A DNA stretch of 35,435 nucleotides from a virus, in the IMG/VR virus record IMGVR_UViG_3300032073_000096, positions 1 to 35,435 of that record. One strand, written 5' to 3'. How positions within the stretch are numbered: the stretch's first letter is position 1; every line of letters begins with the position of its first letter. A program made the translations under genes and the position numbers. The notes under the pieces are model-generated. The model was not told the DNA's origin, made no database searches, and saw only the letters and a program-made list of their open reading frames with translations. Shown here one piece after another: positions 4,000-33,655 of the stretch.

Positions 4000-4032
4000 A
4001 TAAAGTATCTAAAAATTAACACGGAGTATATT

Positions 4033-13192: not shown

Positions 13193-16100
13193 TTACTTGA
13201 TCCTATTAAATTTCTCGTCTAGACTATTTATAGTCATAAAAGGTGTGTGTTTAGTGAGTTTCTTTCTTAGGGCGTCAGTACCATACTCGCCCGCACCACC
13301 TTCTTCATTTGTCTTGTTGTTTCCAATTCCTCTGTTTCTTGATGCAGAAGTTATTTGGATATTGTCGGACGAGTTATTTAAAGGGTTTCCATCTTTGTGG
13401 TGAACATCTTTACCGTCTCCAACTTTCAACTGACCTTTTCTAATTTTCTTATTTCTCAAACTGGTTCTAGAACTTCGTTTGGCTCTTTGCTCTGATGTAC
13501 GATTATATTCCTTCTGACGTTTAGCACGACGAACCGGATCCTCATCTTCAGACAGTGAGTTTAAAAATTCTAGTTCATCTCGTAAATCAGCGTAGTTGTC
13601 TTCACCAATCTCTATGCGTTCATAACCATCAGTCCATCTCAACACTTCTTTGATTACGTTACCAGTGTCACCTAATCTCGGTAGTATAGTTTCGAGGACA
13701 TGATTATAATCGATGAAGAGTTCTTCACCTTCTTCAATATCTTCTGTTGCAACCGTGTAGAAGTTACCGTCAACCTCTTCCAATCTAAGATTGGGGTGAC
13801 GACTGTGGTTGGTTAGACGACAGAAATCTGTTCTCTGGTATTGTGGAACATCTTCTGTGATGTTAAGATAATACATTCCTAACATCTCACCATTTTCGAC
13901 ATTCTCCGTGGCAAAACTACCAAGTCCATGTCGATCTGACTCTTTAAACTCATAGGAATTCTTTAGAGTTGCGATGTTGGTTTTCTTGTTGTAGTTGTAT
14001 TGACTAGGGGACTTACCATCCTTCTTTGCTGCACGATCTTTTGCACGTTCACCAGCAGACATGCTGTTTCTTTTCTTGCCTTTGTCTGTTAGTTGTTGAC
14101 TGCCTTTCTTTAGCACACCATTCTTCTGGAGAGAGGCGTTTGCGATGGCATATGCAGCGTCCTTCGACTTACCCTTTGCCATGAGTTGCTGTACTAGACG
14201 ATCAAGGATCTCTGGTTCCCTCAGTAACTGAACAGATTCCTCTACGGTTTCTGTGTCGTCTTCGCCCTCATTGTAATCGACATCCTTTTCAATTGGAATT
14301 CTCTTAGTCATACCATTGATTACGATGTCGGTGTATTCACCAGACTCTTCGACGTTGAGATCAGCAAGGTTGATAGAACTGGTGTCAATTGAATCTACTT
14401 CAATACCAAGGAACTCTTGAAGTCTGCCTGGATCTGATCCAATATACTTCGTTGCCTTATTCATGTATTCTTTAAAGTTTTCGTCACCTTCGTTCATCAT
14501 CCTATTAGCAACCCATTCAAACGCTTCTTTTGTATCTGTAAATCCCTTGGCTTTAACAATCATACCAAGTGCTGACCAATAAGAATATGAACCAGTCTTC
14601 TGTCTCTGGGAAGATTTGAATCTGGTAAGAATGTTTAGGTTTGCAGGGAGTGCAACTTTATCGATATAGTCAGGATCAATTTGGATAAGTTTAGATTTGG
14701 TTCCGTCTCTGTTCATCGATAGAACGTGTGTTGCACACGCATCAGAGTCTTTACCAAACTTCATCTCTCCTGTCATTGATTCGTGAATGATCGCACGTTT
14801 AAACACTGTGCTACTTTCCATTAGTTCTGAGAACTTTTGGGTATGTTCCTTGTGGAGATCGTCGATTTCTTTCAGTCCTTTGATATCTCCTTCTTTTTCC
14901 CCACCAGCAAGGAATTTGCTTACTTTGTTTTCGCCTGCTGATCCTGTGGGTGTTTGTGCCGTTGTTACCCACGATTCTTGCATTTCTTTTAGTAGACCCT
15001 GTACTGCTTTTCTAGTCTTTGGTTCTTTTTTCAGTTCGTCGCCGTGCTTGTCCAAGATGTTTTCTAGAGTTGCTCGTGCTTCGCCTAACTTTGCAGACAT
15101 GAGTTGTGCATCGCCACATTTTACCGATACGCGAATATTTTCCCCAGTCTTTTTATTCTTAAGCATCAAGTCTGTTTTTGGTGTGCTATCAGTCCCGCCT
15201 TTATCTGACCATGCACTCGTCAGTGGTTCGCTGGATCTACCAAAGTGAACTGCTTCATAGTCCGCAGCATCCCCACCAAGTTGCTCCTTGATAGTATCTA
15301 CAAGTCTTCTGGAAGAATCTTTTAGTGTTTCACTTTGTTTAATTTTTTGCTGATCTGTGTCTGATATTAAACCGACTTTACTGTCATGTTCATGATCATC
15401 ATTCCACACATCAACAAATCCTGCTTCCATGTCTACTGCTTTGTGATCCCAGTCAGGAAAGAGAGAACCCTTACCCTGAATAGTTTTACCATTCTTGGGT
15501 ACACGTTTTGCAGGGGTTAATTCCGGTGCAGGCATTTCTTCGGGTTGTTGCATTTGTCCCTGTTGATCCGGGGACTGTTGCGTGTTTGCGCCTTGTCTCT
15601 TATCTGCTACCTGTTGCTGCGCCTGTTGCGCCATTGATTTCTTTTGTTGTTCCCATCCGAGTAATTTCTTCGCAGTTGATGTCCACTTGAAGTCCGGATC
15701 AACCGCGAGTCTGCCTGCTTTACCTGCATTGAGTTTACCTTTAGGTTTCTCACCCGGTGCAGATCCTGCAATAACTTCTGAGTGTTGATCTGGACTATAA
15801 TCTTGTCCAAGAATAATTTTAATCTTGTCTTGATTATCTCTTACTGCTATAACTGAGTCCCACGGATTAGTTGATGCACGTTCCCCACGTTTTCTAGCAG
15901 CGTCTCTTTCCTTGGGATCCGATGTACCATTACCTCGATCCTGTTCTCGTTCTACTTTACGTCGTCTTGCTTCCTGATCGACGGAAGATACTTCGTTGAT
16001 CATACTGAGGAAGTCTACGTCCATACTCTCTACTGCCTTTGCGGGATCGTTTGTTGTCATTCTTTGTCTCACCTGTTGAAGTCGTTCGGTTTCTGCTTTC

Positions 16101-16999
16101 TTCATCTGTGGAACCAATTTCTTTGATATGCGTGCGATAGCAGCCTTTTTCTTCTGTACCTTCTTGCCAATCTTTTCTCGCTCTTGGAACGATACATCAG
16201 ACCATTTTCTATCACCAAGGATCTTTTTGCGAATGAGTTTGACTGCTTCTTTTCCTGCTTTCGCCTTGATTTGATCTGAACCCTTGCGTCGTTTTTCTTT
16301 CATCTTCCTTGCACGCATTCGCCTTTTTGCAGTCTTCTTAGCGGCACGTTGTAGTTTGCGTCTACCCTGTGTGCTTAGTTCGTTGATTGCCTCTTCTCGG
16401 AACTCGACGAACTCTTCATGATTGAACCACGACTCTGCTATAAAAGGCTTAATTCCCATTCCTTTTTGTACGGCCGCAAAGAGTCCTTTACTATCCCTTT
16501 CACTCATGTGAGTGGGAAGACCTAGGAGGAATGCTTGATAGTTTCCTTCTGCCGCGGCACCACGCATCTTTGATGCAGACATACCTTCAACGCCTTCCGC
16601 ATCAGGATCTCTATCTCCTGCGGATACTACCTCGAAGTTAGTAAACATATATTCTTTGCCAATATACTTGGGGATTTGCTTTTGGAACTCAGCAACTCGA
16701 TCACCACCGACTACCATAGTGACATCGGTGTATCCTGCATCGCTTAGTTTCTTGAGTAGTACGAATGGCGTATTCGCCTTGGCATCAACAGAGACATTGA
16801 ATCCTTTAAGCACTTTCTTCATGTACTTTTCTTTGTCTCTCGCAGACAAAGGATTCTTTTTCTTGTCGGTGCTGCTACTACCGAAGATAGCATGTTCTGC
16901 ACCGCGCCGTCTTGCTTCTTCTTTTACTTTAGTCGCCAGTAATAAATGTCCCGTGGTGGGGGGATTGAATCTGCCAAATGTAAAAACAATTTTCTTCAT
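13193..16999 (-). CDS. 1268-aa multidomain protein: nucleotidyltransferase, nuclease-like, SET and HNH-like regions
   Basis: Residues 1-185 are a nucleotidyltransferase of the NMN-adenylyl/cytidylyltransferase fold: GRFNPPTTGH (9-18) and SASKMR (141-146) are its two nucleotide-binding motifs. A long Arg/Lys-rich helical region follows. Around 600-660 TPKTDL ... RVSVKCG resembles a PD-(D/E)XK nuclease core. Around 960-1010 lies a helical module (DAAYAIANASLQ). Residues about 1016-1100 read as a SET domain (GLGSFATENVENGE, NHSRHPN, FIDYN), as in lysine methyltransferases. Around 1199-1209 VHHKDGNPLNN is HNH-like. The ATG at 16999 has GGAGG 9 nt upstream. Possibly a packaged or proteolytically processed polyprotein; that is inference. 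Confidence 0.8.
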   Translation of the reverse strand: MKKIVFTFGRFNPPTTGHLLLATKVKEEARRRGAEHAIFGSSSTDKKKNPLSARDKEKYMKKVLKGFNVSVDAKANTPFVLLKKLSDAGYTDVTMVVGGDRVAEFQKQIPKYIGKEYMFTNFEVVSAGDRDPDAEGVEGMSASKMRGAAAEGNYQAFLLGLPTHMSERDSKGLFAAVQKGMGIKPFIAESWFNHEEFVEFREEAINELSTQGRRKLQRAAKKTAKRRMRARKMKEKRRKGSDQIKAKAGKEAVKLIRKKILGDRKWSDVSFQEREKIGKKVQKKKAAIARISKKLVPQMKKAETERLQQVRQRMTTNDPAKAVESMDVDFLSMINEVSSVDQEARRRKVEREQDRGNGTSDPKERDAARKRGERASTNPWDSVIAVRDNQDKIKIILGQDYSPDQHSEVIAGSAPGEKPKGKLNAGKAGRLAVDPDFKWTSTAKKLLGWEQQKKSMAQQAQQQVADKRQGANTQQSPDQQGQMQQPEEMPAPELTPAKRVPKNGKTIQGKGSLFPDWDHKAVDMEAGFVDVWNDDHEHDSKVGLISDTDQQKIKQSETLKDSSRRLVDTIKEQLGGDAADYEAVHFGRSSEPLTSAWSDKGGTDSTPKTDLMLKNKKTGENIRVSVKCGDAQLMSAKLGEARATLENILDKHGDELKKEPKTRKAVQGLLKEMQESWVTTAQTPTGSAGENKVSKFLAGGEKEGDIKGLKEIDDLHKEHTQKFSELMESSTVFKRAIIHESMTGEMKFGKDSDACATHVLSMNRDGTKSKLIQIDPDYIDKVALPANLNILTRFKSSQRQKTGSYSYWSALGMIVKAKGFTDTKEAFEWVANRMMNEGDENFKEYMNKATKYIGSDPGRLQEFLGIEVDSIDTSSINLADLNVEESGEYTDIVINGMTKRIPIEKDVDYNEGEDDTETVEESVQLLREPEILDRLVQQLMAKGKSKDAAYAIANASLQKNGVLKKGSQQLTDKGKKRNSMSAGERAKDRAAKKDGKSPSQYNYNKKTNIATLKNSYEFKESDRHGLGSFATENVENGEMLGMYYLNITEDVPQYQRTDFCRLTNHSRHPNLRLEEVDGNFYTVATEDIEEGEELFIDYNHVLETILPRLGDTGNVIKEVLRWTDGYERIEIGEDNYADLRDELEFLNSLSEDEDPVRRAKRQKEYNRTSEQRAKRSSRTSLRNKKIRKGQLKVGDGKDVHHKDGNPLNNSSDNIQITSASRNRGIGNNKTNEEGGAGEYGTDALRKKLTKHTPFMTINSLDEKFNRIK
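13225..13232 (-). promoter_or_regulatory. T4-type late promoter
   Basis: Second perfect TATAAATA on the minus strand, 32 nt upstream of the ATG at 13192 and lying inside the 3' end of the preceding coding region. The near-identical spacing to the site at 12540 supports function. Confidence 0.65.
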
Positions 17000-17028
17000 A
17001 GCGTTAAGCCTCCGATTATTATATGTAT

Positions 17029-17063
17029 AAAAACAGGAGAGCATACATAGGTACACTCTCCTG
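17029..17063 (-). terminator. Rho-independent terminator (minus strand)
   Basis: On the minus strand CAGGAGAG and CTCTCCTG form an 8-bp stem (17034-17041 with 17056-17063, 14-nt loop) followed by TTTTT. It would end a transcript coming from the 40-aa peptide gene before the large multidomain gene. Confidence 0.75.
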
Positions 17064-17072
17064 CAATTTAAT

Positions 17073-17143
17073 CCACTGACTTTCAACAACGGTATTGTTA
17101 AAATGGTTTCTCGGACCACCTCCTTTCGGTTGAAAGTCAGTGG
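17073..17143 (-). ncRNA. Putative structured RNA element with an extended anti-16S sequence in its loop
   Basis: A 15-bp perfect inverted repeat (17073-17087 with 17129-17143) encloses a 41-nt loop. On the minus strand the loop contains AAAGGAGGTGGTCC (17113-17126), which can pair with the 3' end of 16S rRNA over about 14 nt with one G-U pair. No suitably spaced start codon follows, and a terminator lies 10 nt beyond the repeat. It could be a small RNA, a 3' UTR structure of the 40-aa gene, or a ribosome-binding decoy. Confidence 0.45.
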
Positions 17144-17643: not shown

Positions 17644-18840
17644 TTATATCCAGTTCTTATCTACTGTAAAGTTTGCTCTACTGAATTCCAGTCTATCAAC
17701 CAACTTTACTGCATTTTTAGTGAGTTTATCGATTGCAACGAACCCCTCGGGTGCCGTTACATTAAATCCAGTAGCAGTTTGTATAAATGTTCCAATGGAC
17801 TTGACTGACTCTAATTTTCGTACAAGAATAATTTTAGCAGACGTAAGAGATGCGTGCAGTGCGAAAACAGTATCCAAGTTTGTATTTTTGGCTTTAAGAT
17901 AACTTACCATCTCATCGCGTGCAGATTCTTTTCTCGCCTTTGCGGCATCCGTCTTAAGTGCATCTATTCCTGCTTGTAGTTTACTATCAATCCATTCAGT
18001 AAACCCAGAAGAGGAAAGAGATGTCACACCCTTACGTACTTGCTGATTTGCGTAGATGTTTAATTCATCTACTACTTTAGAATTGTCCTTTAGTTCATCC
18101 AAAAACGATTTAGATGAGGACAATAAGGATCTCGCGGTCTTAAGATGACCGTTTAGTGTTTCCGTTTCGCTTGATGTGAGAGTTGCAGTCCCCGTTACGT
18201 CTCTAAACTTGGCATCATCGACCCACACACCAGATACTTTCTTTAGTGCATCTACATTTACGTTGAAAGATGCTTTCATCTTTGATGTTGATCTCCCAGT
18301 ATACTTTGTGTGGAATACAATACCCATCTTAGATGATTGTATTTTCTTACCAAAGTCAGAGTCAACAGGCACTGCATATGTAATTGTGTTCGGTGTAAAG
18401 GTGTAATAAGATTCACCTTTTATTTTCTTTACAGTAACATCACCGGGACCAAACATCATGTCACCTTGAATCACTCCCTTGATAGGAAGTTTCTTGAGGT
18501 ACTTGAGTGCAGTCTCAAGAGATCGTGATACACCGCCTGGATGATTCTTCCTGATGTCAGCAACTGTGTAGTTTATCTTTGGAGTCTTATTGAATATACT
18601 TTTAGTACCGACAAAGAACTTCTTTGTCTCTGGATGAATACCACAGAAAATTGCCGGCGCTCCGTCCCATTTTACCGTTGCACTTATCTTTGTTGCCGCT
18701 TGTCCTGATAGCATCTTCGCAACCTCTTCAGCAAATGAGATTGCTTCCTCTACTCTTCCACTACCCTCAAAGACAAGATCTTCAAGGTGGGTCATGTGAG
18801 TGTTCTTTGCTTCAGTTAGATATGTGCTAAATGACTTCAT
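17644..18840 (-). CDS. Ligase/nucleotidyltransferase-like protein with capsid-targeting N-terminus
   Basis: 398-aa protein beginning MKSFSTYLTEA, the T4-type capsid-targeting pattern with a site (YLTE-A) suited to the prohead protease. The body carries an order of motifs like the DNA/RNA ligase superfamily: KWDG at 57-60 (motif I, K57 the possible nucleotide-binding lysine), FVGTKS at 76-81, VIQGDMMFGPG at 123-133 (motif III-like) and GIVFHTKY at 173-180 (motif IV-like). The C-terminal half is helical. Proteins of this kind in cyanophages are, I believe, labelled as a domain of unknown function. Ligase activity is an inference from motif order; motif V is not clear. Confidence 0.7.
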   Translation of the reverse strand: MKSFSTYLTEAKNTHMTHLEDLVFEGSGRVEEAISFAEEVAKMLSGQAATKISATVKWDGAPAIFCGIHPETKKFFVGTKSIFNKTPKINYTVADIRKNHPGGVSRSLETALKYLKKLPIKGVIQGDMMFGPGDVTVKKIKGESYYTFTPNTITYAVPVDSDFGKKIQSSKMGIVFHTKYTGRSTSKMKASFNVNVDALKKVSGVWVDDAKFRDVTGTATLTSSETETLNGHLKTARSLLSSSKSFLDELKDNSKVVDELNIYANQQVRKGVTSLSSSGFTEWIDSKLQAGIDALKTDAAKARKESARDEMVSYLKAKNTNLDTVFALHASLTSAKIILVRKLESVKSIGTFIQTATGFNVTAPEGFVAIDKLTKNAVKLVDRLEFSRANFTVDKNWI

Positions 18841-20386: not shown

Positions 20387-21217
20387 TTATTGTTTCTTCA
20401 TTGCGAGACGTTTTCTCTTGATTTTGGAGGCGTATAGTGCAGACTCTTCTTTGGATTCTTCTCCACCTTGCTTGCTTTTTGCAAATTTCTTACCGAGGGC
20501 GTTTACTGCCATACCACCAACTGCCTTAGCGGCCATTCCGATAAGTGGTGCAATCTCGTCAATTTGTTCAGCAGATTCTTTCTTGACTCCCTTGGTACGG
20601 TTCTCTTCGCCAGCACCTTCTGTTTTACCATAACCGGCATACAGTTTACTTGCTGCTTTTCTTCCCTTACCTTTGGGTGCAAGTTCCATATTCTCTTGCT
20701 TATCGTCTTCCTTACCTGCCTTGCGTTCGTCCTCTTCGTCTGCATTTTCTTCGTCATCGATCACGGCTTCTTTCTTGACACCTTTGCCACGGTTTTCTTC
20801 ACCGGCGCCTTCTGATTTACCGTATCCAGCATAGAGTTTCTTTGCAGCATCAGAACCCTTACCCTTGGGTGCGAGTTCCATGTTTTCTTCTTGCTCTTCT
20901 TCCGAGTCCTTTGCTTTCTTCTTTGCAATGCTTGCCTTGATCTTACTTGCAACCTTTGATGCTGCACCAGCGGCAGCAGCACGGACTACTGGGTTACCTG
21001 CGGCCGCGGCAACTGCTTTACCGACACCTTCGTCGAGTTCAACCGGAGCATTGGATTCCATTACTCGTCTAGCAGCATCAGCAAGAGAATCGACGTTGTT
21101 TGTACCTTGCTCCTGCACGTTCTGTGCGTGCCAATATCCATTTCTGAAATCCTTCATTTTAGGATCATTATTTTTGGCGTCTTGCGCCCATTGCATCCAT
21201 TGTTGTTTATCGAACAT
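20387..21217 (-). CDS. Charged repeat-bearing protein, probable prohead-core or internal protein
   Basis: 276 aa, rich in Lys, Glu and Ala. An N-terminal helical part (residues 1-50) is followed by VELDEG (59-64), a likely prohead-protease site, then an Ala-rich helix (65-100). Two 40-residue repeats occur at 111-150 and 175-214 (each with ENMELAPKGKG, KLYAGYGK and EGAGEENR), joined by an acidic linker. A second protease-like motif EQIDEI (217-222) follows. This plan of acidic or basic repeats with protease sites suits scaffold-core or packaged peptides of T4-like phages. GGAG precedes the ATG. No enzymatic motif is seen. Confidence 0.7.
   Translation of the reverse strand: MFDKQQWMQWAQDAKNNDPKMKDFRNGYWHAQNVQEQGTNNVDSLADAARRVMESNAPVELDEGVGKAVAAAAGNPVVRAAAAGAASKVASKIKASIAKKKAKDSEEEQEENMELAPKGKGSDAAKKLYAGYGKSEGAGEENRGKGVKKEAVIDDEENADEEDERKAGKEDDKQENMELAPKGKGRKAASKLYAGYGKTEGAGEENRTKGVKKESAEQIDEIAPLIGMAAKAVGGMAVNALGKKFAKSKQGGEESKEESALYASKIKRKRLAMKKQ
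20576..20887 (-). repeat. Two in-frame 120-bp tandem coding repeats
   Basis: Bases 20768-20887 and 20576-20695 encode nearly the same 40 residues, separated by a 72-bp acidic spacer. The protein copies differ at only a few positions (for example SEGAGEENRG versus TEGAGEENRT), but synonymous differences make the DNA copies less alike, so the duplication is not very recent. Confidence 0.8.
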
Positions 21218-21284: not shown

Positions 21285-23159
21285 TTATTTATTCTTCTTT
21301 GCTTTATGAATTGCATCTAATTTCTTATCATACTCTTTGTCATTCAGTGCTTTGTTCATTTCCTTAGCGGTTGGTTCTGGGTTGGACTTATCCAAGTCAG
21401 AGACATTTTCGCCTACATCTTTCTTTCCAGGCCAGTCTCTCATCTTGGTGGTGATCTTCTTACCACCTGGTCCAACTGATTGGATCTTATATCCAATCTT
21501 CTTTTCTGGATTTAGTTTAACCTTGATCTTTGGTGCTTCATCCATTGGGGTACGACTTGCACTCTGACGTTTTCGTGCGAGGGACATGGGATTTTCTGCA
21601 CCATCCGCGTCACCCTTACGAAGTTTGCCGCCTGCCTTGAGATCTGCTCTTGCCGCACCACGACTATATGCCTTGCGAACCTCTGGATCTCTTGCTCGTC
21701 CTCTTTCGTCCTTCGCTGGCATCTTGAGTTCATCGAGTTCGACTTCTTCGTCGTACTGACGAGCAACGAGTTTCTTGGTTGCCTTATCGACACCCTTCGC
21801 TCTTTTATTAGTTTTATTAGTGACTTTTCCGAAATCGCCGTACTTGTCCCGTGTAATTTGGGCCCTCGCTTTGTCTTTGTAATTCATAATAGTGGCCTTC
21901 TTGAGTTCATCGACTTGTTCAATGTCCTCGTTGTATGGGAATCCCTTACCCTTGAGTGGTTGTTCGATACCCATTCTCTTAGCGTCTTCATCACTGATTT
22001 GTTCACCCATACGTTTCCTGTAGTCCTTACCGGCAATACTACGCATGTCGAGATCAGTCTTGGCCTTTACCACACCCTTTTGTCGCTTTCGTAACTTGTC
22101 CATCTCACCCTTGTCTGCTTTCATGTGACTTGGTTTGTCTGCCATTCGAGCGACACGATTGGTGTTGTCCTTCTGTGCCTTACCGATGTAGGACTTCATG
22201 GTTTTTGCATCAAGTTCATCAACCTGTTCAAAGGATTCATTTGAGATTGTATAATTTTTGATTTTGTTCTTTTTAAGTTCAGTGTCAAGTCGTTTTCTGT
22301 CGCCCTTTGGTACTTTGATTTCACCATTTGGTGATATCACACCCATGACGCCAATTTTTCTCATGATCTTACGAGCCTCATAGTTTTCATCAACCTGCTC
22401 GACTTCTTCGTTCTTCTTTTTATATTGACCTGTATATACAACATGGTTGCCATCATTATCTTTTTCAACACTACCTTGCGGGTATTTCTTTCTTAATTTG
22501 GAAACCTGATCACCGGATAATTTTGTATTGGTGTAACCAACTTTTTGTCCAGTATTATCGTGATCATATTGCTGGATAACTTCATCAACCTGTTCGACTT
22601 CTTCGTTCTTCTTACCAGCAAAGAGTCTCTGTCCTTTGTACTTACCAGCAACGTCAGGAATGCCAGCATCTCTGCGACTTCTCACTTCTGCACTCTTGTT
22701 GTGCTTCGTAACTAGTCTATCAGCAGTTGCTTTGTCATGTCCGTGAGACATACCCATTGCACCTCTTGGGTGGTTCTTGAGAACAGAGTACGTTCCGTCA
22801 TCTCTCTTCTTTGTGAAGTGTGCAGGTTCTTTGGCTTCACCAATGTTCATCTCAGACATCTCGGGATCGTACTCGGGGTTCTCTGGGTCGAAGTGTTCCA
22901 TGACATCATCGACACTCAAGTACATGTCGGAGTCAGTGTCGTAGTACTTGCCTGCCTTCTTGTCGTAATAGAAGATCTTTCCAGACTTCTTGCTACGGTA
23001 CGGACCCTCAAGTCCTTGTTTTTCTTTGTTGGGATACCTGTTTCTGTCTATACCAGGCACAACACCCTTTTTCTTGAACTTCTTATAGTGTGCCTTTGCA
23101 GACATTTCATTCATGTGTTCTACTGCTTGTTCGATCAGTGACTTATTTTCGTTTTCCAC
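21285..23159 (-). CDS. Modular prohead-core polyprotein with five EQVDE-type motifs
   Basis: 624 aa, highly basic with acidic punctuation. Five near-identical motifs occur at 185-193 and 250-258 (NEEVEQVDE), 307-316 (NESFEQVDEL), 410-419 (NEDIEQVDEL) and 470-478 (DEEVELDEL). Upstream NIGE-A at 105-109 fits the (L/I)xE-(A/G) site of the T4 gp21 prohead protease. The modules after the third and fourth motifs resemble each other (helical start with K(T/A)xMxxYxxKA and an end with KRxKGVxKAxxxL). This looks like a string of small Lys-rich units cut apart during head maturation. It overlaps the upstream gene by 17 nt. A direct DNA-condensing role is inferred. Confidence 0.7.
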   Translation of the reverse strand: MENENKSLIEQAVEHMNEMSAKAHYKKFKKKGVVPGIDRNRYPNKEKQGLEGPYRSKKSGKIFYYDKKAGKYYDTDSDMYLSVDDVMEHFDPENPEYDPEMSEMNIGEAKEPAHFTKKRDDGTYSVLKNHPRGAMGMSHGHDKATADRLVTKHNKSAEVRSRRDAGIPDVAGKYKGQRLFAGKKNEEVEQVDEVIQQYDHDNTGQKVGYTNTKLSGDQVSKLRKKYPQGSVEKDNDGNHVVYTGQYKKKNEEVEQVDENYEARKIMRKIGVMGVISPNGEIKVPKGDRKRLDTELKKNKIKNYTISNESFEQVDELDAKTMKSYIGKAQKDNTNRVARMADKPSHMKADKGEMDKLRKRQKGVVKAKTDLDMRSIAGKDYRKRMGEQISDEDAKRMGIEQPLKGKGFPYNEDIEQVDELKKATIMNYKDKARAQITRDKYGDFGKVTNKTNKRAKGVDKATKKLVARQYDEEVELDELKMPAKDERGRARDPEVRKAYSRGAARADLKAGGKLRKGDADGAENPMSLARKRQSASRTPMDEAPKIKVKLNPEKKIGYKIQSVGPGGKKITTKMRDWPGKKDVGENVSDLDKSNPEPTAKEMNKALNDKEYDKKLDAIHKAKKNK

Positions 23160-23466: not shown

Positions 23467-23745
23467 ATGCCATACCCATTACATCAAACAGGCAAAGTAC
23501 ATGATCAGGCGACTAGTCAAGTATTTGACCTAACATACAAAAACAACAAAGGTGTGTTAATATCACCAGGCGATGCCAACGGCACGATCACATTAAGACT
23601 GTTTTCATTTCCCGGTGGGGGTGAGAACGGTGATACCGTGCAGATTCCTATCGCAGCAGACAAAAAACCTTTTATCATTCCCATAAGAATAAAAGCAGTC
23701 ACGGCGTGGACCGGTAACAACTCCTCTCTGACAGAATTATTGTGA
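23467..23745 (+). CDS. Tandem paralog 1: small beta-rich structural-like protein (92 aa)
   Basis: First of four adjacent paralogs. The shared plan is a YPxxxTGxV start, a central NNKGVLI strand, a Gly-rich turn (FPGGGENGD) with a TVQIPI strand, an IPIRIKAV strand and a short end. GGAGG (23457-23461) sits 5 nt before the ATG. The all-beta, repeat-free small fold and tandem copies suggest a virion decoration, head-fibre or tail-fibre-associated protein, but no family name comes to mind. It is divergent from the minus-strand core genes. Confidence 0.75.
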   Translation: MPYPLHQTGKVHDQATSQVFDLTYKNNKGVLISPGDANGTITLRLFSFPGGGENGDTVQIPIAADKKPFIIPIRIKAVTAWTGNNSSLTELL

Positions 23746-23752
23746 GTCTATA

Positions 23753-24064
23753 GTGTCATATCCATCATATAAAGTAGCAAACGTAACTACTCTATCATCG
23801 GCCTCGAACGTGACGGTTACTCCCGTTAATAAAAATAATAAGGGATTTATAATTTTACCCACGTTTTTGTCCACGGCGACATCGGATCCGGCAACCGCAG
23901 AAATTAGACTATACTCACATCCAACAGGTGGTGAATTGGGAGATACGTTTACGATTTTTTGGTCTAATAATGATTCACCTATGACACCTACACATATACC
24001 GTTTAGAGTTCACTCTATATCTGCTATTACAACGACAGTAACGTATATCTTGGAATTAATTTAG
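23753..24064 (+). CDS. Tandem paralog 2 (103 aa, GTG start)
   Basis: Shares the YPSYKVANV start, KNNKGFIILP strand, the HPTGGELGDTF turn and strand, and a HIPFRVHSI strand with its neighbours. It is Ser/Thr-rich. The start is GTG at 23753, 7 nt after the previous stop, without a strong ribosome site, so translation may depend on coupling. No Cys or catalytic pattern is visible. A structural role is inferred from the paralogous cluster only. Confidence 0.7.
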   Translation: MSYPSYKVANVTTLSSASNVTVTPVNKNNKGFIILPTFLSTATSDPATAEIRLYSHPTGGELGDTFTIFWSNNDSPMTPTHIPFRVHSISAITTTVTYILELI

Positions 24065-24072
24065 GAGAAGTT

Positions 24073-24381
24073 ATGTACCCATATTACAATACAGGACGAG
24101 TGTACACCAATTCCACTACTTCTGGAGCAAGCACGTCGAACCCCATTTTTCTCAATCAAAACAATAAAGGTATCATGGTTATACCCGATCAGACCTCGCC
24201 CGCCGGTGGTGCTGACTGCCAGGTGAAGATGATGGGAGTTGATGGGATGGAAGCACCCGGACATCCGGCAGGGGTTTTACTAGACGGATCCAATGGAGAC
24301 GAGCCTTATTTCATTCCAGCAACTGTGTTATCAATCGTAGCCCAGGTCGCTAGTGACGCCCAAGTAGTGGAGTTATTCTAA
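24073..24381 (+). CDS. Tandem paralog 3 (102 aa)
   Basis: Begins MYPYYNTGRVYTN and carries NQNNKGIMVIP, a diverged central turn (MEAPGHPAGV) and YFIPATVLSIVAQV near the end. AGGAG precedes the ATG by about 5 nt. Its first eight residues are identical to those of paralog 4, so the two probably arose by the most recent duplication of the cluster. Its TAATG overlap couples it to paralog 4. Confidence 0.75.
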   Translation: MYPYYNTGRVYTNSTTSGASTSNPIFLNQNNKGIMVIPDQTSPAGGADCQVKMMGVDGMEAPGHPAGVLLDGSNGDEPYFIPATVLSIVAQVASDAQVVELF

Positions 24382-24683
24382 TGTATCCATATTACAACAC
24401 AGGCATAGTACATACACCGGAAAATGTTAAAACTGGTGTTGAAGATAACTGGGTTCCTCTCAATGGGAAACCCAACAAGGGAGTTCTTATTGCTAATAAA
24501 GGCGGCGGAACTAAAACAAGAACATTTATACTTCCATCAAACCCTACCGGAAACATGCCTGGTGATTCGTTTCAGATCTCAATCCCCGCAAGAACTGTTG
24601 TAATATTGCCTCTGCGGATCTATTCAGTAGATCTATCTGACTTGTCGGGATCGGCCCAGACGGCAATGGTATTGCTATACTAG
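24381..24683 (+). CDS. Tandem paralog 4 (100 aa)
   Basis: Begins MYPYYNTGIVHTP and carries PNKGVLIANKGGG, LPSNPTGNMPGDSFQISI and ILPLRIYSVDLSDL, which match the same strands in paralogs 1-3. Its ATG lies inside the stop of paralog 3. It ends in a 4-nt overlap with the convergent HNH gene, with no clear terminator between, so some read-through into antisense is possible. The repeated copies could let one particle display several versions of a surface protein. Confidence 0.75.
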   Translation: MYPYYNTGIVHTPENVKTGVEDNWVPLNGKPNKGVLIANKGGGTKTRTFILPSNPTGNMPGDSFQISIPARTVVILPLRIYSVDLSDLSGSAQTAMVLLY

Positions 24684-25263: not shown

Positions 25264-25995
25264 ATGTTATTCGTAAGATCAGTCTTTATGTTACTGCTGA
25301 TCGTCGTAACTACTAGTTGTGCATCCCGTGAAAAGTTAGACGATACTAATCGTACATCAACATTTTCTCAAGAACAAACGAAATTACATTTTGATTTTAT
25401 TGAACACAGCACCATTCCTGCTGCTGGATCATTGTACAACAAAGACGACAAGTTTGTTGGTTCGTGTGTTCTTGTAACTAAAAATATTGCACTGACCGCT
25501 GCTCACTGTATTCATTATGGTGATCTTAAGTACGTTAGGTTTGGCGAAGAAAAAATACTAATCGATATGCAATTCATCCACAAGGACTATTTCTTGTCTG
25601 GTGATGACATTGGTTTACTAGCATTTTCCACTGAATCAACACACACTCCTATGCCACTATTACAGAATGTAGAAGACCTCGGTGCGATGATTCCTCTACG
25701 CACAATCGCTCATGGTGGTGGTGATAAGAAGATAAGCAAGGATGATGTGTTTAGGTTCTATGGTATACTGAAAAATAGACCAAACGAAGTCATATTTCTC
25801 CCACTCAAAACCACTGTCTGGTTCGGTGATTCTGGTGGTGCCTTAGTCTGGGAAGATTCGGATGGAAACTATGCTCTGGTAGGAATCATCACACACTTTT
25901 CAACTGCTGATGATAAAATCTATGAGTGTGCGGCACGACGTACTGACACATTCAATCTGTGCGACGATATATGGCATCCTTGGTTTGTTGAATAG
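25264..25995 (+). CDS. Secreted trypsin-like serine protease, lipoprotein-type signal
   Basis: 243 aa. A hydrophobic leader (residues 4-16) ends in a lipobox-like TTSC (C19), so the protein is probably exported and may be lipid-anchored in the envelope. The S1 protease triad is present in order: H81 in LTAAHC, D115 in GDDIGLLAF and S190 in FGDSGGAL, with Cys pairs that could form disulfides. Family length for a minimal trypsin fold is met. No clear SD precedes the ATG; a TATACT box at 25254-25259 is close enough to suggest a leaderless transcript, though its -35 is poor. Substrate unknown; an envelope or competing-phage receptor target is conceivable. Confidence 0.85.
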   Translation: MLFVRSVFMLLLIVVTTSCASREKLDDTNRTSTFSQEQTKLHFDFIEHSTIPAAGSLYNKDDKFVGSCVLVTKNIALTAAHCIHYGDLKYVRFGEEKILIDMQFIHKDYFLSGDDIGLLAFSTESTHTPMPLLQNVEDLGAMIPLRTIAHGGGDKKISKDDVFRFYGILKNRPNEVIFLPLKTTVWFGDSGGALVWEDSDGNYALVGIITHFSTADDKIYECAARRTDTFNLCDDIWHPWFVE

Positions 25996-26001: not shown

Positions 26002-27045
26002 TCACTTCGAGAGAAAGTCTCTGATCTCTTCGTAGTTACTGTATGCTTTATCACCCGAACGACTCTTCTTGTTCTTCACCCATGCGTCAATATACATGGG
26101 ACGGTTTATTCCCTTGTTACCATACTCAGGACCAGCATCAACAATATCTTGTAGTGTCTTCTTCTGTGACCTATTGAGTTTGGCAAGGTTCACTTCGACA
26201 TCAATCTCGCGGGAGTTGTTTCGGATTCGTGCCCATCCCTTTTCGTGTGGTGCATTGTATACAACCTTACCCATATTATCTGGTGCCTTCTTACCGAAAT
26301 ACTTGGTGAAGTTTGCTGCTACCCAATCATAGTGTGTATACGGGTGTCCTTTGGGGTGTGTGATCTCTTTACTCGCGTTCATATCGTATACCTTACCCTT
26401 GGGATCAATCCAGAGTGTGTGACCAAACTTACCTTCGTTGAGTTCTTCCCACTCACGGAACATCGCCATTGTTCGTCCGATGTCACTACGCTTGTCTACG
26501 CGAATCTTCGAGGGATCTGGTTGGTTACCATCCAACCATACGTCAATGCGTTGCTTGTCTTTGAGTGTCTCTAGAGTCTTGCGTTGACCACCCTGATAAA
26601 ACAACTGTAATTCAAGGTATTTGGCGTTCCGTGGTGACATGCGTGGATTCTTCTTGTCGAGATGTTTAGCAACTGCGTGTACACTACGCCAATCAGATCC
26701 CCCGATGGTTGTATATATGCTATCGATGACGATACGACACCATCCCTTTCGCATTGCTTCAAACTCGACCGGATGATCGATGTCCCATTCTCCACTGCGA
26801 AGATATGCTAAATGTTGTTCTGCTGATTCCTCTGGATCGGGTGCATCCATTTTGTCAAACCTAGTTGTCAACACACGAAGAACACTCTTGTCATTCATAC
26901 GAAACTTAGATAGGTTATTGGTGAGGTATTGTACGTGGTATGGTTCTACACTACGCCATGTGTGCATTTTGCCACCTTTAGCATTGACCCACCCTTTGGA
27001 CATGCCACCAGTTGCTTCCTCAATATATTCGCTAAATGATTTCAT
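26002..27045 (-). CDS. Probable internal head protein with capsid-targeting N-terminus and duplicated domain
   Basis: 347 aa beginning MKSFSEYIEEATGG, the capsid-targeting pattern with YIEE-A as the likely cut site. The rest contains two related units. The first (about 18-125) has WVNAKGGKMHTW, PYHVQYLTNNLSKF and KGWCRIVID. The second (about 205-325) has LWIDPKGKVYDM, PYTHYDWVAANFTKYF and KGWARIRNNS. A helical linker joins them. No catalytic motif is visible. GGAG lies upstream and the ATG overlaps the previous TGA. Not recognised by name; likely packaged with DNA if the N-terminus is functional. Confidence 0.65.
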   Translation of the reverse strand: MKSFSEYIEEATGGMSKGWVNAKGGKMHTWRSVEPYHVQYLTNNLSKFRMNDKSVLRVLTTRFDKMDAPDPEESAEQHLAYLRSGEWDIDHPVEFEAMRKGWCRIVIDSIYTTIGGSDWRSVHAVAKHLDKKNPRMSPRNAKYLELQLFYQGGQRKTLETLKDKQRIDVWLDGNQPDPSKIRVDKRSDIGRTMAMFREWEELNEGKFGHTLWIDPKGKVYDMNASKEITHPKGHPYTHYDWVAANFTKYFGKKAPDNMGKVVYNAPHEKGWARIRNNSREIDVEVNLAKLNRSQKKTLQDIVDAGPEYGNKGINRPMYIDAWVKNKKSRSGDKAYSNYEEIRDFLSK

Positions 27046-27503
27046 ATGTCGCTCCAGAATACTCTTTCTTTACCCGTACTATTTATTCTTTTGGCAAGTG
27101 CTTTCATTGTCTTGTTTTTAAGGGCGAAGTCTGTACCTACGGTGCGTGAGTTATGCACGATAACTCTCAGGTTACCTGACTGGTGGACGATTGCATCATC
27201 ATCATCGAGGTTCAAGAACCCAACGACACCCTTTGCATATGTTCCACTCACATATTTCTCACCTGTCATAGCAAACACCACCGCATCGTGTAATGCTTCG
27301 TCACTGTCCCATGCCCACATCTTGCCTTTCGTATCTACAAGCCACCTCAATTCATAGAACTTTGCCTTTTTCATGTGTGTGACAAGTTCCCTTTCGGTGG
27401 GGTTTTCTAAACCACGAAAGTTTTCCCACTTCGCACCTTTGTATGGTAATGCCGCCGATAATTTCGCAGGCCTCTCTGTGATGTATTCGCCAAATGATTT
27501 CAT
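27042..27503 (-). CDS. Probable internal head protein, one-domain relative of the downstream gene
   Basis: 153 aa beginning MKSFGEYITERPAKL (capsid-targeting pattern, site YITE-R). The body has LRWLVDTKGKMWAW, then a Gly/Val-rich strand, LRVIVHNS and a helix ending MKALAKRI, which repeats the order of the unit present twice in the 347-aa neighbour. So the two genes are paralogous. The start at 27503 is preferred over the upstream GTG (27515) because it restores the MKSF motif and gives the usual ATGA overlap with the upstream gene. Function unknown. Confidence 0.65.
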   Translation of the reverse strand: MKSFGEYITERPAKLSAALPYKGAKWENFRGLENPTERELVTHMKKAKFYELRWLVDTKGKMWAWDSDEALHDAVVFAMTGEKYVSGTYAKGVVGFLNLDDDDAIVHQSGNLRVIVHNSRTVGTDFALKNKTMKALAKRINSTGKERVFWSDI

Positions 27504-28474
27504 CAACAGTCCCACTTACGGAGTGCGAGTGCCTTGCGAGTTGGTTTACCCTTTTCGTCCTTCATTGGACCTTTCATACCACCCATTCTCGCACAGAATG
27601 ACTTCCGTCTTCCTGCGGCCTTGCCATCAGGGTTCTTGGATGCAGTCTTCGATGATACAGGTGCTTTGAGATCGGATCCGGGGTTCTCTCGTTCGTATGA
27701 TGCACGACCTTTGGCGTTCAATCCGCCTTCACTGTTCTTGCCTGCTTTACGTTGCCATGCCGCAGACTTCTCAATGACGTTACCCTCTTCGACCTTTTTA
27801 GTCTCAGGATCGTCGTGGTTATAACCCTTTTTCTTCATCTCAAGGTGATCCTTTTCTGTTTTGGCTTTATACCCCTTGCCAGTTTTAGGATCATACATCA
27901 TGTGAGGTTTGAATTCGTCCTTGTCTTCATTCTGTTTACCATAGGTGACGCAAGGATCTTTACCACAACCGCAGTTTTTAGGTGTTTTTTCCTCTTCTAC
28001 ACTCTCAGTTTTCCACTTACCGCCGGCGGCCTTGTACTGTTTCGATGCCCAACCATTAGCATATGCAGAAGGGTATACGTCAAACTTCGCCTTTGCCTGT
28101 GACTTGAACTTCGACCAGAGTGATGGGTTGGTTGGTACGTTCTTTTCCTGTAAATAATCCTTAAATGATTTCATAGATTCCCCTATTTTGTTGGATACGT
28201 TAATTGGTTTATTGCCAGTACCGGGACGATCAACATCAGAGTCATTTCGCCTCTTGCGTCTCACTGCGGCACCTCGTTCATCCTTCGACATCTTACGCGC
28301 CTTTTCTTTAGACAGGCACTTTGGTTTACCCTCGCCGGGTTCTCTCGCACACTTACCGACACGTTCGCCTTTAGTATTGTAACGATCCCAACCACCACCG
28401 CCGGCACCGCCTTTTTTACCAGTACCAAACCATTTGCGTAGATCTTCCGAGAAATAATTTGTAAATGATTTCAT
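27503..28474 (-). CDS. Basic modular protein with two capsid-targeting motifs
   Basis: 323 aa, strongly basic. It begins MKSFTNYFSEDLRKWFG and continues with a Gly-rich GGAGGGGWDRYNTKGERVGKC module. A second MKSFKDYLQE occurs at residue 101, its ATG (28172-28174) preceded by AGGGG, so a shorter protein may start there. The middle holds FDVYPSAYANGWASKQYKAAGG and a CGCGKDPC motif. The C-terminus (GLNAKGRASYERENPGS, RRKSFCARMGGMKGPMKDEK) matches domains of unknown function common in phages of aquatic bacteria. GGAGG precedes the first ATG. It may be two ancestral internal proteins fused, or one gene making two products. Confidence 0.75.
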   Translation of the reverse strand: MKSFTNYFSEDLRKWFGTGKKGGAGGGGWDRYNTKGERVGKCAREPGEGKPKCLSKEKARKMSKDERGAAVRRKRRNDSDVDRPGTGNKPINVSNKIGESMKSFKDYLQEKNVPTNPSLWSKFKSQAKAKFDVYPSAYANGWASKQYKAAGGKWKTESVEEEKTPKNCGCGKDPCVTYGKQNEDKDEFKPHMMYDPKTGKGYKAKTEKDHLEMKKKGYNHDDPETKKVEEGNVIEKSAAWQRKAGKNSEGGLNAKGRASYERENPGSDLKAPVSSKTASKNPDGKAAGRRKSFCARMGGMKGPMKDEKGKPTRKALALRKWDC

Positions 28475-29617: not shown

Positions 29618-31870
29618 TCAGGCAGCGATGAGATCGATGAACCTGCTGAGGAGTACGCGGGAAGTGGAACGTCCCTTCGCCGACTTGGCGAATGCGTTCT
29701 TCAGTTTGGTGAAGGTAGCGTCTTCGGGAAGGTCTTCCATGAGATCGTTGGAGACTTTCGCGTTCGACTTGACGACGAAGTACTCGGTCCATCCGTTGCT
29801 GGGCAGAGCGGCGAAGTTTTCCTTAGAGAACGACTTCTTGAATGCATCGAATGCTTCATCGGACTCGATCTGGTATCGGAAGTTCTTGACGTTCGGGGTC
29901 ATGTAGATTCCGATGACGTTGGCATCGGTGGTGTCCTTGAGCCATTCGGCAACGGTTCCGGTGAATCGTCGTCCTTCAACCTTGAAGGTCTTTCGAGTCT
30001 TGGGGTCGAGGAGGTCGGTACGTCCCCAACCGTTACCACCGGCTTCGCCGTCGGTGAGAATGACAGTGTTCACGATCTGGACACCGTTTCGAGTCTTGAA
30101 CTCGGGAACGATGTTTCCAAGGGCGAACATGGCTTCATGGAGAGGAGTACCGGACAGGCGGAATCGAGGGCTACAACCAACATTCTCCATACCGTCATAC
30201 GTGTTCGCTTCCATCATCATCCAGAGGCAGGCGCAGGCAGTCTTGAATTCTCGCGTGTTCATGCGATTCGAGAGAAGATTGTTCAGAACGAAACTCTGGC
30301 AGTTATAGTCTTCGATTGTACCATCATTTTCGCGGAAGGTCTGGGTCTCGCCACGTTCCTTCATCAATTCGTCGTATCGATCCCAATCACCGTATCGGGT
30401 GACGTTGAAAGGCATTTCATTCGTGAACGAGTAGACCTCGAAGGGAATGTTGACTTTCTTGCAGAAGAAGACGAGGCTGAGAAGTTGTTCGACGGTATCC
30501 CGAAGGCAGTCTGCCATCGATCCGCTCCAATCGATCACCATGACGAGGCCGTGGCTCTTGCCGTCGGCGATTTCTTCGTTGCGGAGGAAGATATCTTCGC
30601 TCCAACGGTAATCGATCATGCGATTGGTGTCGAGAATACCAGTCTTCGAGGTCGAAGTACGCTTGTCCTGGTCGGCAGCCATCTTCATTTCAAACTGCTT
30701 CACCAGCATATTGGTAGTCTTCCGACTATCGTTCTCGAAGGCACGGACGGCGGCGGCGCATTCCGCGAACTTTTCGCACTGAAGGTCGTTTCCGGTCATG
30801 AAGTCTCGCATGGCAGTGGCGACTTCGGTGTAGTCGATGGCAACCTTGGACATGTCGAGGTCGGGAACTCGCTGGTAGTTGACGCCGCGGCAGTACTCGT
30901 CACGCATCGCGTTGATAGCGTTCTCCATCGCTTGTGACGTTTCAGGCATGGGAGCATCCATGACGGTCGTGTTCGCGCCCTGCACGGTCGAAGGGGTCGA
31001 ACCCGTTTCCTCGCCTTCGGCGGATTCGCCGGTGTCGGTGTCATCGTCGGCGGATTCGCCACTGTCTTCACCATCGGACGCGGAACCGGATTCGCCGTCT
31101 TCGCCTTCGCCGTCTTCAGCATCGGAATCGCCACCTTCGCCGTTGCCGGTGCCTTCGTCTTCGGATTCAGCACCACCGGCACCGGGCATACCCTGGCCGG
31201 TAGGTCCGTCTTCGTCGCCCTGTTCGCGGTCTTCGGGCGTACCATTGCCGGTGTCGTCGTTCTGAGGCAGGGCAGCATCGGTCCACAGTTCCGTGGCGAT
31301 ATCGACGATCTCGGTCCATTCGTCAGCATTCTCGATACGGTCGATCCAGACACGTTCGGCGGCAGTGAACGGGACATTGGCGAGATGTCCAATCTTGAAA
31401 TGAATGTTCAGGCGATCGATGAGCATGAGATCGTTCAGGTCCTTGCCCGCGATCTGGAAAATGTCATCTTCGGCGAATTGACGGTAGGCATTCACGAAGT
31501 CGCGGCGGAGGCCGGGGAACTTCGCCTTGATCATTCGTTCGATACGGGCGTCTTCGACCACATTCAGGAAGTGACGGCCACTGCCGCTGCGGTCTTCACC
31601 ACCGGCAACGCGGTCAGAGGCATCTGCCCATTCGCTGCCTTGTGGAGTATGGAGGGCGTGGCTGACCTCGTGACCGATGAGCATATCGTACATCGAATCG
31701 GTCATATCCTGCCACACGGGAAGGCCGAGAACGCGCCGCTTGGTATCGAAATACGCGGTTTCGGCGGTCGCGTCATGAATGACAGTGATATTCTCCGTGG
31801 CCATAGCACGGGCGAGGATATCGCGGGATGTTCGGGACTTGTTCGGGACGGTAGTGGTAGTGGTACTCAT
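29618..31870 (-). CDS. CobT-like VWA protein with N-terminal HExxH metallopeptidase-like domain
   Basis: 750 aa. The N-terminal domain carries HEVSH at 67-71, a zinc-metallopeptidase motif, with NVVEDARIE at 103-111 supplying a possible third ligand. A long Asp/Glu/Gly/Ser-rich linker (about 206-300) follows. The C-terminal part is a von Willebrand A domain with the MIDAS motif DWSGS at 447-451 and a later T-D-G-E. VWA proteins of this kind work with MoxR/CobS-type AAA+ ATPases, and exactly such a gene diverges from this one. The ATG sits where transcription should start, so the mRNA may be leaderless. Peptidase activity is plausible but unproven; the HExxH unit may be structural. Confidence 0.88.
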   Translation of the reverse strand: MSTTTTTVPNKSRTSRDILARAMATENITVIHDATAETAYFDTKRRVLGLPVWQDMTDSMYDMLIGHEVSHALHTPQGSEWADASDRVAGGEDRSGSGRHFLNVVEDARIERMIKAKFPGLRRDFVNAYRQFAEDDIFQIAGKDLNDLMLIDRLNIHFKIGHLANVPFTAAERVWIDRIENADEWTEIVDIATELWTDAALPQNDDTGNGTPEDREQGDEDGPTGQGMPGAGGAESEDEGTGNGEGGDSDAEDGEGEDGESGSASDGEDSGESADDDTDTGESAEGEETGSTPSTVQGANTTVMDAPMPETSQAMENAINAMRDEYCRGVNYQRVPDLDMSKVAIDYTEVATAMRDFMTGNDLQCEKFAECAAAVRAFENDSRKTTNMLVKQFEMKMAADQDKRTSTSKTGILDTNRMIDYRWSEDIFLRNEEIADGKSHGLVMVIDWSGSMADCLRDTVEQLLSLVFFCKKVNIPFEVYSFTNEMPFNVTRYGDWDRYDELMKERGETQTFRENDGTIEDYNCQSFVLNNLLSNRMNTREFKTACACLWMMMEANTYDGMENVGCSPRFRLSGTPLHEAMFALGNIVPEFKTRNGVQIVNTVILTDGEAGGNGWGRTDLLDPKTRKTFKVEGRRFTGTVAEWLKDTTDANVIGIYMTPNVKNFRYQIESDEAFDAFKKSFSKENFAALPSNGWTEYFVVKSNAKVSNDLMEDLPEDATFTKLKNAFAKSAKGRSTSRVLLSRFIDLIAA

Positions 31871-32179: not shown

Positions 32180-33655
32180 ATGAACAATACCCTCTCAACT
32201 CGTCAGAACGATTTCGTCCGTGCCCTCTGCGCCGCCTTCGGTGATGCCACCGAATACACTCGCGCCGAGTTGATGGACGTATGCGAATCGTCCGGTATCT
32301 ACTCCTGCCCTCCGTCATGGATCACGCAGGATTCGACCCGGAAGATCTCGCGTGGCGTGTACTCCGTTCCCGAAGTCGCCGAAGTCGGTGCTACCAAGTC
32401 CGCGGCCCGTGCCGCTAGGACCGACTTCGATCGTGCCATGCAGACTCCCGACCCGGAGTTCTACGTCATGAACGATGCCGATGGCAACGAATTCAAGTGT
32501 GACGCTAACGGCAAGCCCCTTGCCGATGCTCCTGCTCCTGCCCCTGCGGTCTCGACCGTTGCCAATCATGCCGTCATGGGCATGACTGGTGGTGAGCGTT
32601 CGACCCTCGTTCCTTCGCGGATCTCGACCTACGTGCCTTGGGGACATTTCAAGTCTGTCGAGATGATCGTCAAGGCCGGAATCTTCTATCCCACGTTCAT
32701 CACGGGACTTTCCGGTAACGGCAAGACCACGATGATCGAACAAGTCTGTGCCAAGATGAAGCGAGAATGCTATCGTATCAACATCACTCGCCAGACCGAC
32801 GAGGATGACCTGCTCGGTGGTTTCCGCCTCATCAACGGCGAGACCGTGTGGCAGGATGGACCAGTCGTGCAAGCGATGAAGTCCGGTGCCGTGCTTCTGC
32901 TGGACGAGATCGACCTCGCCAGCCATAACATCATGTGCCTTCAGCCTGTGTTGGAAGGTAAGGGCGTGTTTCTCAAGAAGACTGGCCAGTGGGTCACTCC
33001 TGCCGCCGGTTTCACCGTGTTCGCCACTGCGAACACCAAGGGCAAGGGCTCCGATGACGGAAAGTTCATCGGGACCAACGTCCTGAATGAAGCATTCCTC
33101 GACCGCTTCCCGATCACTATGGAACAGGCCTATGCGCCTCGTTCGACCGAGAAGAAGATTCTCGCCAAGGCGATGTCTGCCCAAGGTATCGACGATGCCG
33201 ACTTCGCCGAGAATCTGGTGAAGTGGTCGGAGATCATCCGCAAGTCGTATTTCGAGGGTGCCGTGGACGAGATCATCTCGACCCGCCGCCTGGTGGACAT
33301 CACCAAGGCCCTTGCCATCTTCGGTGATAAGGTACAGGCCATCGACTTCGCCCTCTCGCGTTTCGATGACGATACGAAAACCGCCTTCCGCGACCTGTAC
33401 GCCAAGGTGGATGCCGAAGTCGGTGACCACGACGATGCCGCCGAGGCCGAGACTGCTGCCGCAGGACTTGAAACTGCCGACCGCGTGAATCTCGCGTGTT
33501 CATACGACCAGAAGGATCTCGCCAAGAGCATGGGTGCCAAGTGGGATTCTCCCGCCAAGGTATGGTACGTCTCTGGCGACCTCTACCGTCAGAACCCTGA
33601 CCAGTGGGCGCAGTTCAACCCTGCCCCCGTCACTGCTCCTGCCTGCCCCTTCTGA
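32180..33655 (+). CDS. CobS/MoxR-type AAA+ ATPase
   Basis: 491 aa. An N-terminal domain (about 1-70; STRQNDFVRAL ... PSWITQDSTRKISRGVYSVPE) resembles a winged-helix binding module. A linker rich in Ala/Pro follows. The AAA+ core has Walker A TGLSGNGKTT (175-184), Walker B LLLDEID (about 237-243), an ATANTKG sensor-1 stretch and NEAFLDRF for the arginine finger region. A C-terminal motif (DQKDLAKSMGAKWDSPAKVWYV) fits the DUF5710 fold. CobS in bacteria inserts cobalt in B12 synthesis with CobT, but phage copies more often act with a VWA partner, as here. GGAG is 11 nt before the ATG. Confidence 0.88.
   Translation: MNNTLSTRQNDFVRALCAAFGDATEYTRAELMDVCESSGIYSCPPSWITQDSTRKISRGVYSVPEVAEVGATKSAARAARTDFDRAMQTPDPEFYVMNDADGNEFKCDANGKPLADAPAPAPAVSTVANHAVMGMTGGERSTLVPSRISTYVPWGHFKSVEMIVKAGIFYPTFITGLSGNGKTTMIEQVCAKMKRECYRINITRQTDEDDLLGGFRLINGETVWQDGPVVQAMKSGAVLLLDEIDLASHNIMCLQPVLEGKGVFLKKTGQWVTPAAGFTVFATANTKGKGSDDGKFIGTNVLNEAFLDRFPITMEQAYAPRSTEKKILAKAMSAQGIDDADFAENLVKWSEIIRKSYFEGAVDEIISTRRLVDITKALAIFGDKVQAIDFALSRFDDDTKTAFRDLYAKVDAEVGDHDDAAEAETAAAGLETADRVNLACSYDQKDLAKSMGAKWDSPAKVWYVSGDLYRQNPDQWAQFNPAPVTAPACPF

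Follow-up and report, generated by a model that had tools for sequence, protein, structure and literature searches.

A probable head polyprotein of environmental T4-superfamily phages, built from exchangeable modules joined at predicted gp21-type cleavage sites

The window analysed here, by which we mean the whole 35,435-bp stretch of one virus record, itself a genome fragment, encodes on its minus strand (21285..23159) a Lys-rich (16% Lys) modular protein of 624 aa with a GTG start. Judging from its sequence, this protein is quite probably a prohead-core or internal-head polyprotein of a marine phage of the T4 superfamily, predicted to be cut by a gp21-type (S77) protease at [I/L/V]-x-E sites. 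A preliminary description of this DNA had listed five acidic motifs at intervals of 57-103 residues. All five are present in this ORF, namely NEEVEQVDE/V, NEEVEQVDE/N, NESFEQVDE/L, NEDIEQVDE/L and DEEVELDE/L (the slash marks the predicted cut); they end at residues 193, 258, 315, 418 and 477, and their measured spacing is 65, 57, 103 and 59 residues. They comprise four copies of EQVDE and one of EVELDE. The wider pattern E[EQ]?[VIL]DE occurs 5 times against 0.05 expected, with none of 5000 composition shuffles reaching 5, while EQ[VIL]DE occurs 4 times against 0.001 expected (0/5000 shuffles reach 4), so that chance is excluded for the recurrence of the motif. Two further [IM]-x-E positions, NIGE, which indeed ends at residue 108 before an Ala, and HMNE at residue 18, deserve attention because the MSAKAHYK... 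module, which starts at residue 19, follows [VIM]-x-E in relatives. At P3 the window sites mostly have Val (V-x-E), in addition to L-D-E and I-G-E. Endings in VDE or LDE had been considered near to, but not identical with, the T4 rule; VDE does fall outside it, whereas LDE obeys the published gp21 rule, L/I-x-E (PMC9026906). Processing of the T4 capsid-targeting peptide is blocked when Asp takes the place of the P1 Glu (PMC9026906). A Pfam search with the ORF gave no domain match, a comparison with the gp67 family phrog_1064 was equally negative, and the sole PHROG match was phrog_13298 (residues 36-86). The N-terminus, VENENKSLIEQAVEHMNE (VENENKSLIEQ...), contains L-I-E and M-N-E; it lacks the capsid-targeting (CTS) pattern M-K-x-[FY]-x-x-[FYIL]-[IL]-x-E and offers no clear capsid-targeting peptide.

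The sites divide the ORF into modules 1 to 8, all coordinates of which refer to the minus strand. The probable site EHMNE/M (residue 18; 23106..23120) opens module 1 (residues 19-108; 22836..23105), the phrog_13298 module, whose MSAKAHYK... start follows EQVDE, NIGE, IEE or MNE in relatives; it ends in NIGE/A (residue 108; 22836..22847), which fits I-x-E and is the very form that precedes module 1 in relative G006. Module 2 (residues 109-193; 22581..22835), conserved in relative L001 and beta-beta-beta-alpha in our model, ends at NEEVEQVDE/V (residue 193; 22581..22607), the left edge of a two-module gap in L001, the right edge being NESFEQVDE/L (residue 315; 22215..22241). The two modules missing from L001 are module 3 (residues 194-258; 22386..22580) with its site NEEVEQVDE/N (residue 258; 22386..22412), and module 4 (residues 259-315; 22215..22385), for which sequence comparison found no relative. 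For module 5 (residues 316-418; 21906..22214), BLAST matches in G002, G006, G007 and L001 begin at residue 316, each immediately after an EQ[VI]DE site; its own end is NEDIEQVDE/L (residue 418; 21906..21932). Module 6 (residues 419-477; 21729..21905) is a helical hairpin of the L-S-K-x-T-L-G-S-Y...K-G-I family, closed by DEEVELDE/L (residue 477; 21729..21755), an exact T4-type L-x-E. Module 7 (residues 478-541; 21537..21728) ends in a possible site, TPMDE/A, which is weak with its Met at P3, and module 8 (residues 542-624; 21288..21536) is homologous to residues 210-265 of a 353-aa protein of G002. The similarity among modules that had been suggested proved weak: it was seen for modules 5 and 6, which share L-x-x-x-T...Y...KA...KGV..A and whose iterated HMMs converge, but was not detectable among the others. 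Even for these two, direct alignment of the module 5 profile to that of the module-6 family yielded nothing beyond the site common to both.

The AF2 model of the module-6 family was derived from a 62-sequence alignment, in which the P1 Glu is one of five invariant columns. It consists of a two-helix hairpin (mean pLDDT 77) beginning 2-3 residues after the predicted cut, and the site upstream of the hairpin belongs to an N-terminal segment modelled with low confidence; for some sites, the prediction makes the acidic tail the last part of the preceding helix instead of a free linker. The model of modules 1-2, of low confidence (mean pLDDT 55.6), shows two small beta-containing units, separated by a gap of pLDDT <50 that contains NIGE 108. 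Foldseek comparison of this model with the PDB yielded nothing at E < 0.1, the WW-like and NMB1088 matches being insignificant; likewise, a sequence search of solved structures and a PADLOC/antiphage-defence family search returned no match. The preliminary description had suggested that the modules are DNA-binding peptides, of which the basic composition is what we could recover (pI 9.0-10.7 for the module cores without their acidic tail). That the freed modules are histone-like and condense the packaged DNA, a reading compatible with proteolytic release, we regard as doubtful, since they match no DNA-binding family in Pfam or PHROGs and no significant fold, several of them resemble separate small domains and not uniform basic peptides, and the core peptides made by gp21 in T4 are thought to exit the prohead (PMC9958956).

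The site rule was examined across the family by two samplings. Searching IMG/VR with a DNA pattern for EVEQVDE gave 80 loci; the motif was in frame at 79 of these, for the most part within Lys-rich ORFs that commonly had multiple sites. The two residues directly upstream of the pattern are E-E/D at roughly nine sites out of ten, and Lys stands one position further up in half. To avoid circularity, viral contigs were also chosen by the module sequence TLGSY[IV]KKA alone, blind to the motif. All 81 distinct copies were found to carry [VILM]-x-E in one register, ending exactly 4 residues before the T. P1 is Glu in 100% of them, P2 varies (Asp in 73%, also Asn, Glu, Thr, Phe and Ser), and P3 is Ile (54%), Leu (38%), Val (6%) or Met (1%). 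With this uniform register and I/L at 92%, the TLGSY module family, as far as its sequences tell, obeys the T4 gp21 rule, the V-D-E of the window being a minority form. Conservation of the motifs alongside their modules, on which the preliminary description had made its proposal depend, thus held in 81/81 copies. The identical site also precedes unrelated modules (VIQQ.., NYEA.., RTMG.., MSAK..) and is therefore more than one domain's N-cap. Other upstream dialects keep only [ILV]-x-E, such as VQE in L172 and those of the cultured Caulobacter phage Cr30, whose protein AGS80949 (L313 3897-5945; 682 aa, annotated as hypothetical) has at least three modules of the same family (ISKKTLANY, ISKATLGSY and VSKSLLARY) and the repeated boundaries SENLNE/, SEEMINE/, EELDE/ and EALDE/, with an [IL]-x-E core and an upstream dialect unlike EEVEQVDE. 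Boundary dialects look fairly uniform inside one protein and differ between phages. P1' is often Leu, Val or Ile; Ala, Ser or Thr are usual at the ends of capsid-targeting peptides in this dataset.

A gp21 homolog, whose search had been proposed as a check, was found in relatives and not in the 35,435-bp window, a result that is uninformative for a fragment. Both gp21 (3e-37) and gp23 (5e-138) are encoded by the 128-kb relative G006. Moreover, gp21 is present in all five contigs of 140 kb or more from the two samples, as well as in all five cultured phages checked (Cr30, S-H38, Melnitz-3, KVP40 and P-SSM2). Among contigs of at least 50 kb, it occurs in 9/14 module-bearing versus 4/16 random ones, a modest enrichment (p = 0.035), and in 14/27 module-bearing contigs when both samples are pooled (p = 0.08); several long contigs presumably lack it because they are fragments. 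In gp21-bearing contigs the N-terminal propeptides of the MCP keep L/I-x-E-like sites, e.g., GREFISE/APA and SLLE/AAPV. A site-bearing protein lies between gp20 and gp21, the position of T4 gp67/gp68, in 9 of 17 gp21-bearing loci (L174, L169, L168, L170, L011, L308, L309, L310 and L312); T4 gp22, gp67 and gp68 are degraded by gp21 (PMC9958956). The slot protein of L174 (558 aa) has six sites of the EEVEQ[VIM]DE kind and an N-terminus that is gp67-like by eye, while that of L011/G006 (189 aa) matches the gp67 family phrog_1064 at 1.5e-5 and then continues into its one site, EEVEVDE/AVTT. The 624-aa gene of the window lies outside this slot, on a contig that carries no head operon.

Two other proteases were considered as processing enzymes. 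The S78 prohead protease was found in 0/21 contigs. A trypsin-like serine protease (PF00089, 6.5e-9) is encoded in the window at 25264-25995 (plus strand) with a lipoprotein-like signal sequence, and an orthologue lies near the polyprotein gene in G006 (3908-4714); it was set aside because of this N-terminus and because trypsin-like proteases as a rule do not cleave after Glu.

The surroundings of the gene look like an internal-protein cassette, as judged by predicted sites and N-termini. The adjacent Ala/Lys/Glu-rich protein of 276 aa (20387..21217, minus) carries, as had been described, the same type of motif, VELDE/G at residue 63 and EQIDE/I at residue 221; a 136-nt direct duplication (77%; 20576-20903) in its ORF encodes ENMELAPKGKG...KLYAGYGK(S/T)EGAGEENR twice. 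Four window proteins, all on the minus strand, start with peptides of the CTS pattern: a DUF6267 protein of 398 aa (17644..18840; MKSFSTYLTE/A), a 347-aa protein (26002..27045; MKSFSEYIEE/A), a protein at 27042..27503 (ATG at 27503; MKSFGEYITE/R), and a DUF6321 protein of 323 aa (27503..28474; MKSFTNYFSE/D), which has a second, internal copy, MKSFKDYLQE/K. These N-termini are close to the targeting peptide of T4 IPIII, MKTYQEFIAE/A. CTS-like N-termini were counted in 12/376 genes versus 8/1756 internal Met (p = 2e-5). The DUF6267 protein also carries KWDGAP, a ligase/nucleotidyltransferase-like KxDG motif; it has orthologues in G001, G002, G006 and G007, and in cyanophages these adjoin a nucleotidyltransferase.

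A further minus-strand gene (13193..17119) encodes a 1308-aa fusion of a nucleotidyltransferase (NMNAT/cytidylyltransferase-like) with SET and HNH domains, whose module boundary INE/LSTQ matches EVDE/LTIQ and ELNE/LTVQ in relatives. The SET domain (residues 1087-1139, E 1.7e-8) is an unusual component of a phage protein encoded in what is probably a virion cassette, and a scan for close relatives with the nucleotidyltransferase module confirmed none. The homologous nucleotidyltransferases (T4-GC190) of cultured cyanophages begin with MKSFSQFLTE/T (P-SSM2), MKSFFQFLSE/A (S-SM2), MKKFSAFLNE/A (Syn19) or MKSYKEFLSE/A (S-H38). By mass spectrometry, a nucleotidyltransferase or NMNAT-like homologue has been detected in purified virions of S-SM1 (PMC3037559) and S-SCSM1 (PMC9602691), and in those of S-CREM2, where the authors allow for purification carry-over (PMC10665884). 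The CTS-like peptide is a likely reason why these enzymes recur in cyanophage virions; a full-text search joining "capsid targeting" and "cyanophage" returned only a T4 review.

Other genes of the window deserve mention. Four tandem short proteins (92-103 aa; 23467-24683, plus), beside the polyprotein gene on the opposite strand, look like duplicates, as two start with MYPYYNTG and all have an NKG segment; the two that were tested had no Pfam match. Further along, a large phrog_459 "peptidase" protein (29618-31870, minus) and a MoxR/CobS-like AAA ATPase (32180-33655, plus), on opposite strands, resemble the cyanophage cobT/cobS pair.

It could be argued that modules and motif are real while the protein stays uncut, the acidic [K]EEVEQ[VI]DE segment serving as a structural linker or as a scaffold-binding tether that holds basic modules to the core, with the Glu retained for capping or docking. 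In line with this, the acidic stretch P9-P4 is conserved beyond the known requirement of gp21, which makes a second role, e.g., scaffold binding, possible; the hairpin model shows its C-terminal site in a helix; and [IL]-x-E is not depleted inside the modules (1.17 relative to shuffles, equal to K-rich controls), so that the modules have not been purged of the triplet. We nevertheless hold an uncut protein to be improbable, for P3 and P1 are the most conserved positions whereas P2 varies freely, which is the gp21 signature, the differing dialects of Cr30 and L172 retain just the triplet, the same triplet closes the capsid-targeting peptides of the neighbours, and homologues occupy the gp67/gp68 position.

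Comparison of relatives shows, at the sequence level, that the modules are exchanged as cassettes: phages gain, lose and reorder them, and the breakpoints lie at the sites. In a motif-masked BLAST among motif-bearing proteins, 120 of 456 HSPs have their start no more than 8 residues from a site; with random positions, 500 trials gave 32 ± 8.5 and at most 63. HSP ends likewise fall near sites (85 versus 27 ± 8 for random positions). L001 is devoid of exactly residues 194-315 (modules 3-4); its NEEVEQIDE runs straight into module 5, the join falling right after the site Glu, and the flanking DNA is 95-97% identical to that of the window. In G001, module 3 (99% identical) and the same NEEVEQVDE are followed by another module (RTMGS...). 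Module 5 comes before module 1 in G006 and after it in the window and G002, and module 1 stands alone as the 83-aa KVP40.0154, with the CTS-like N-terminus MQGFKDYFKKGEVKLQE followed by T. The DNA of sites 193 and 258 has in common a 33-nt repeat, 97% identical, which could assist recombination. That the repeated site is mainly such a DNA joint, its peptide having no function of its own, is very improbable in spite of this repeat and of the exact breakpoints in L001 and G001, because the site codons, and even residues, differ between phages while P3 and P1 persist, and a pure DNA joint would not retain Glu in 81/81 copies.

Taken together, the site register, the shuffling at the sites, the homologues in the gp67/gp68 position and the presence of gp21 in relatives support the polyprotein and prohead-protease idea of the preliminary description, which is probably right and more general than could be seen from one stretch of DNA. 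According to this reading, the polyprotein would enter the prohead core alongside other core and internal proteins, and activated gp21 (the S77 prohead protease, whose gene is expected in another part of the genome) would cut it after the Glu of [I/L/V]-x-E, in the window at E-Q-V-D-E/, E-V-E-L-D-E/, N-I-G-E/ and probably H-M-N-E/. Some 7-9 small basic modules of 57-103 residues would thus be freed, most of them keeping an acidic ...EEVEQVDE tail at the C-terminus. These products may either escape, like the T4 core peptides, or stay and be injected, like T4 IPI and Alt, and the short DNA repeats encoding the sites may aid recombination between modules. More tentatively, and with somewhat less than even confidence, we suggest a widespread cargo-loading system of environmental T4-superfamily phages, in which mini-protein modules are strung in one or a few polyproteins, some of these in the gp67/gp68 slot. 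Each module would have a standard site for excision by the head protease; the modules would be packaged, liberated in the prohead and injected, and phages could swap injected effectors through recombination at the sites.

By sequence, the 624-aa protein appears akin to gp21-processed core and internal proteins, but belongs to no single T4 protein family. A literature search, to which subscription journals were mostly closed, found no description of shuffled head polyproteins. With T4 gp67, gp68 and gp22 the family has in common the gp20-gp21 slot in many relatives, the charged composition, the [L/I]-x-E sites, the expected multiple cuts per chain and, for the 189-aa protein, the phrog_1064 match; it differs in its far longer chains (up to ~1200 aa), its distinct exchangeable modules and standardised acidic site, and, in the window, by the location of the gene among other candidate internal proteins. 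Head proteins of the giant phages SPN3US and phiKZ have long propeptides and are cut several times after x-x-E by a gp21-like protease (PMC10052503), and in this they are comparable; however, what is cut off there is propeptide that is discarded from a single mature protein, and shuffled modules with a repeated site have not been described there. Polyvalent proteins, which deliver many domains per chain with the phage DNA, with proposed proteolytic release and domain shuffling (PMC5512222), would be similar in all three features, but their enzyme domains are large and a peptidase domain is often part of the chain, whereas the modules here are 50-100 aa, mostly of no assigned function, and the predicted cut, at a short repeated site, would be made by the head protease; the 624-aa ORF has neither a Pfam effector, enzyme or peptidase domain nor a PADLOC match. 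T4 IPI-IPIII and Alt resemble the window and relative neighbours that begin with CTS-like peptides ending in [I/L]-x-E, yet each receives one N-terminal cut (Alt one C-terminal cut in addition), in contrast to the many predicted internal cuts and many products of the polyprotein. With the site rule, one can look for cleavage sites and for candidate injected proteins in the many uncultured phages where they are annotated as "hypothetical". Every known T4 internal protein is delivered from a gene of its own and carries a separate targeting peptide; here, the loose three-residue rule of the head protease appears to have been turned into a standard joint, by which one gene could deliver a changeable set of small proteins.
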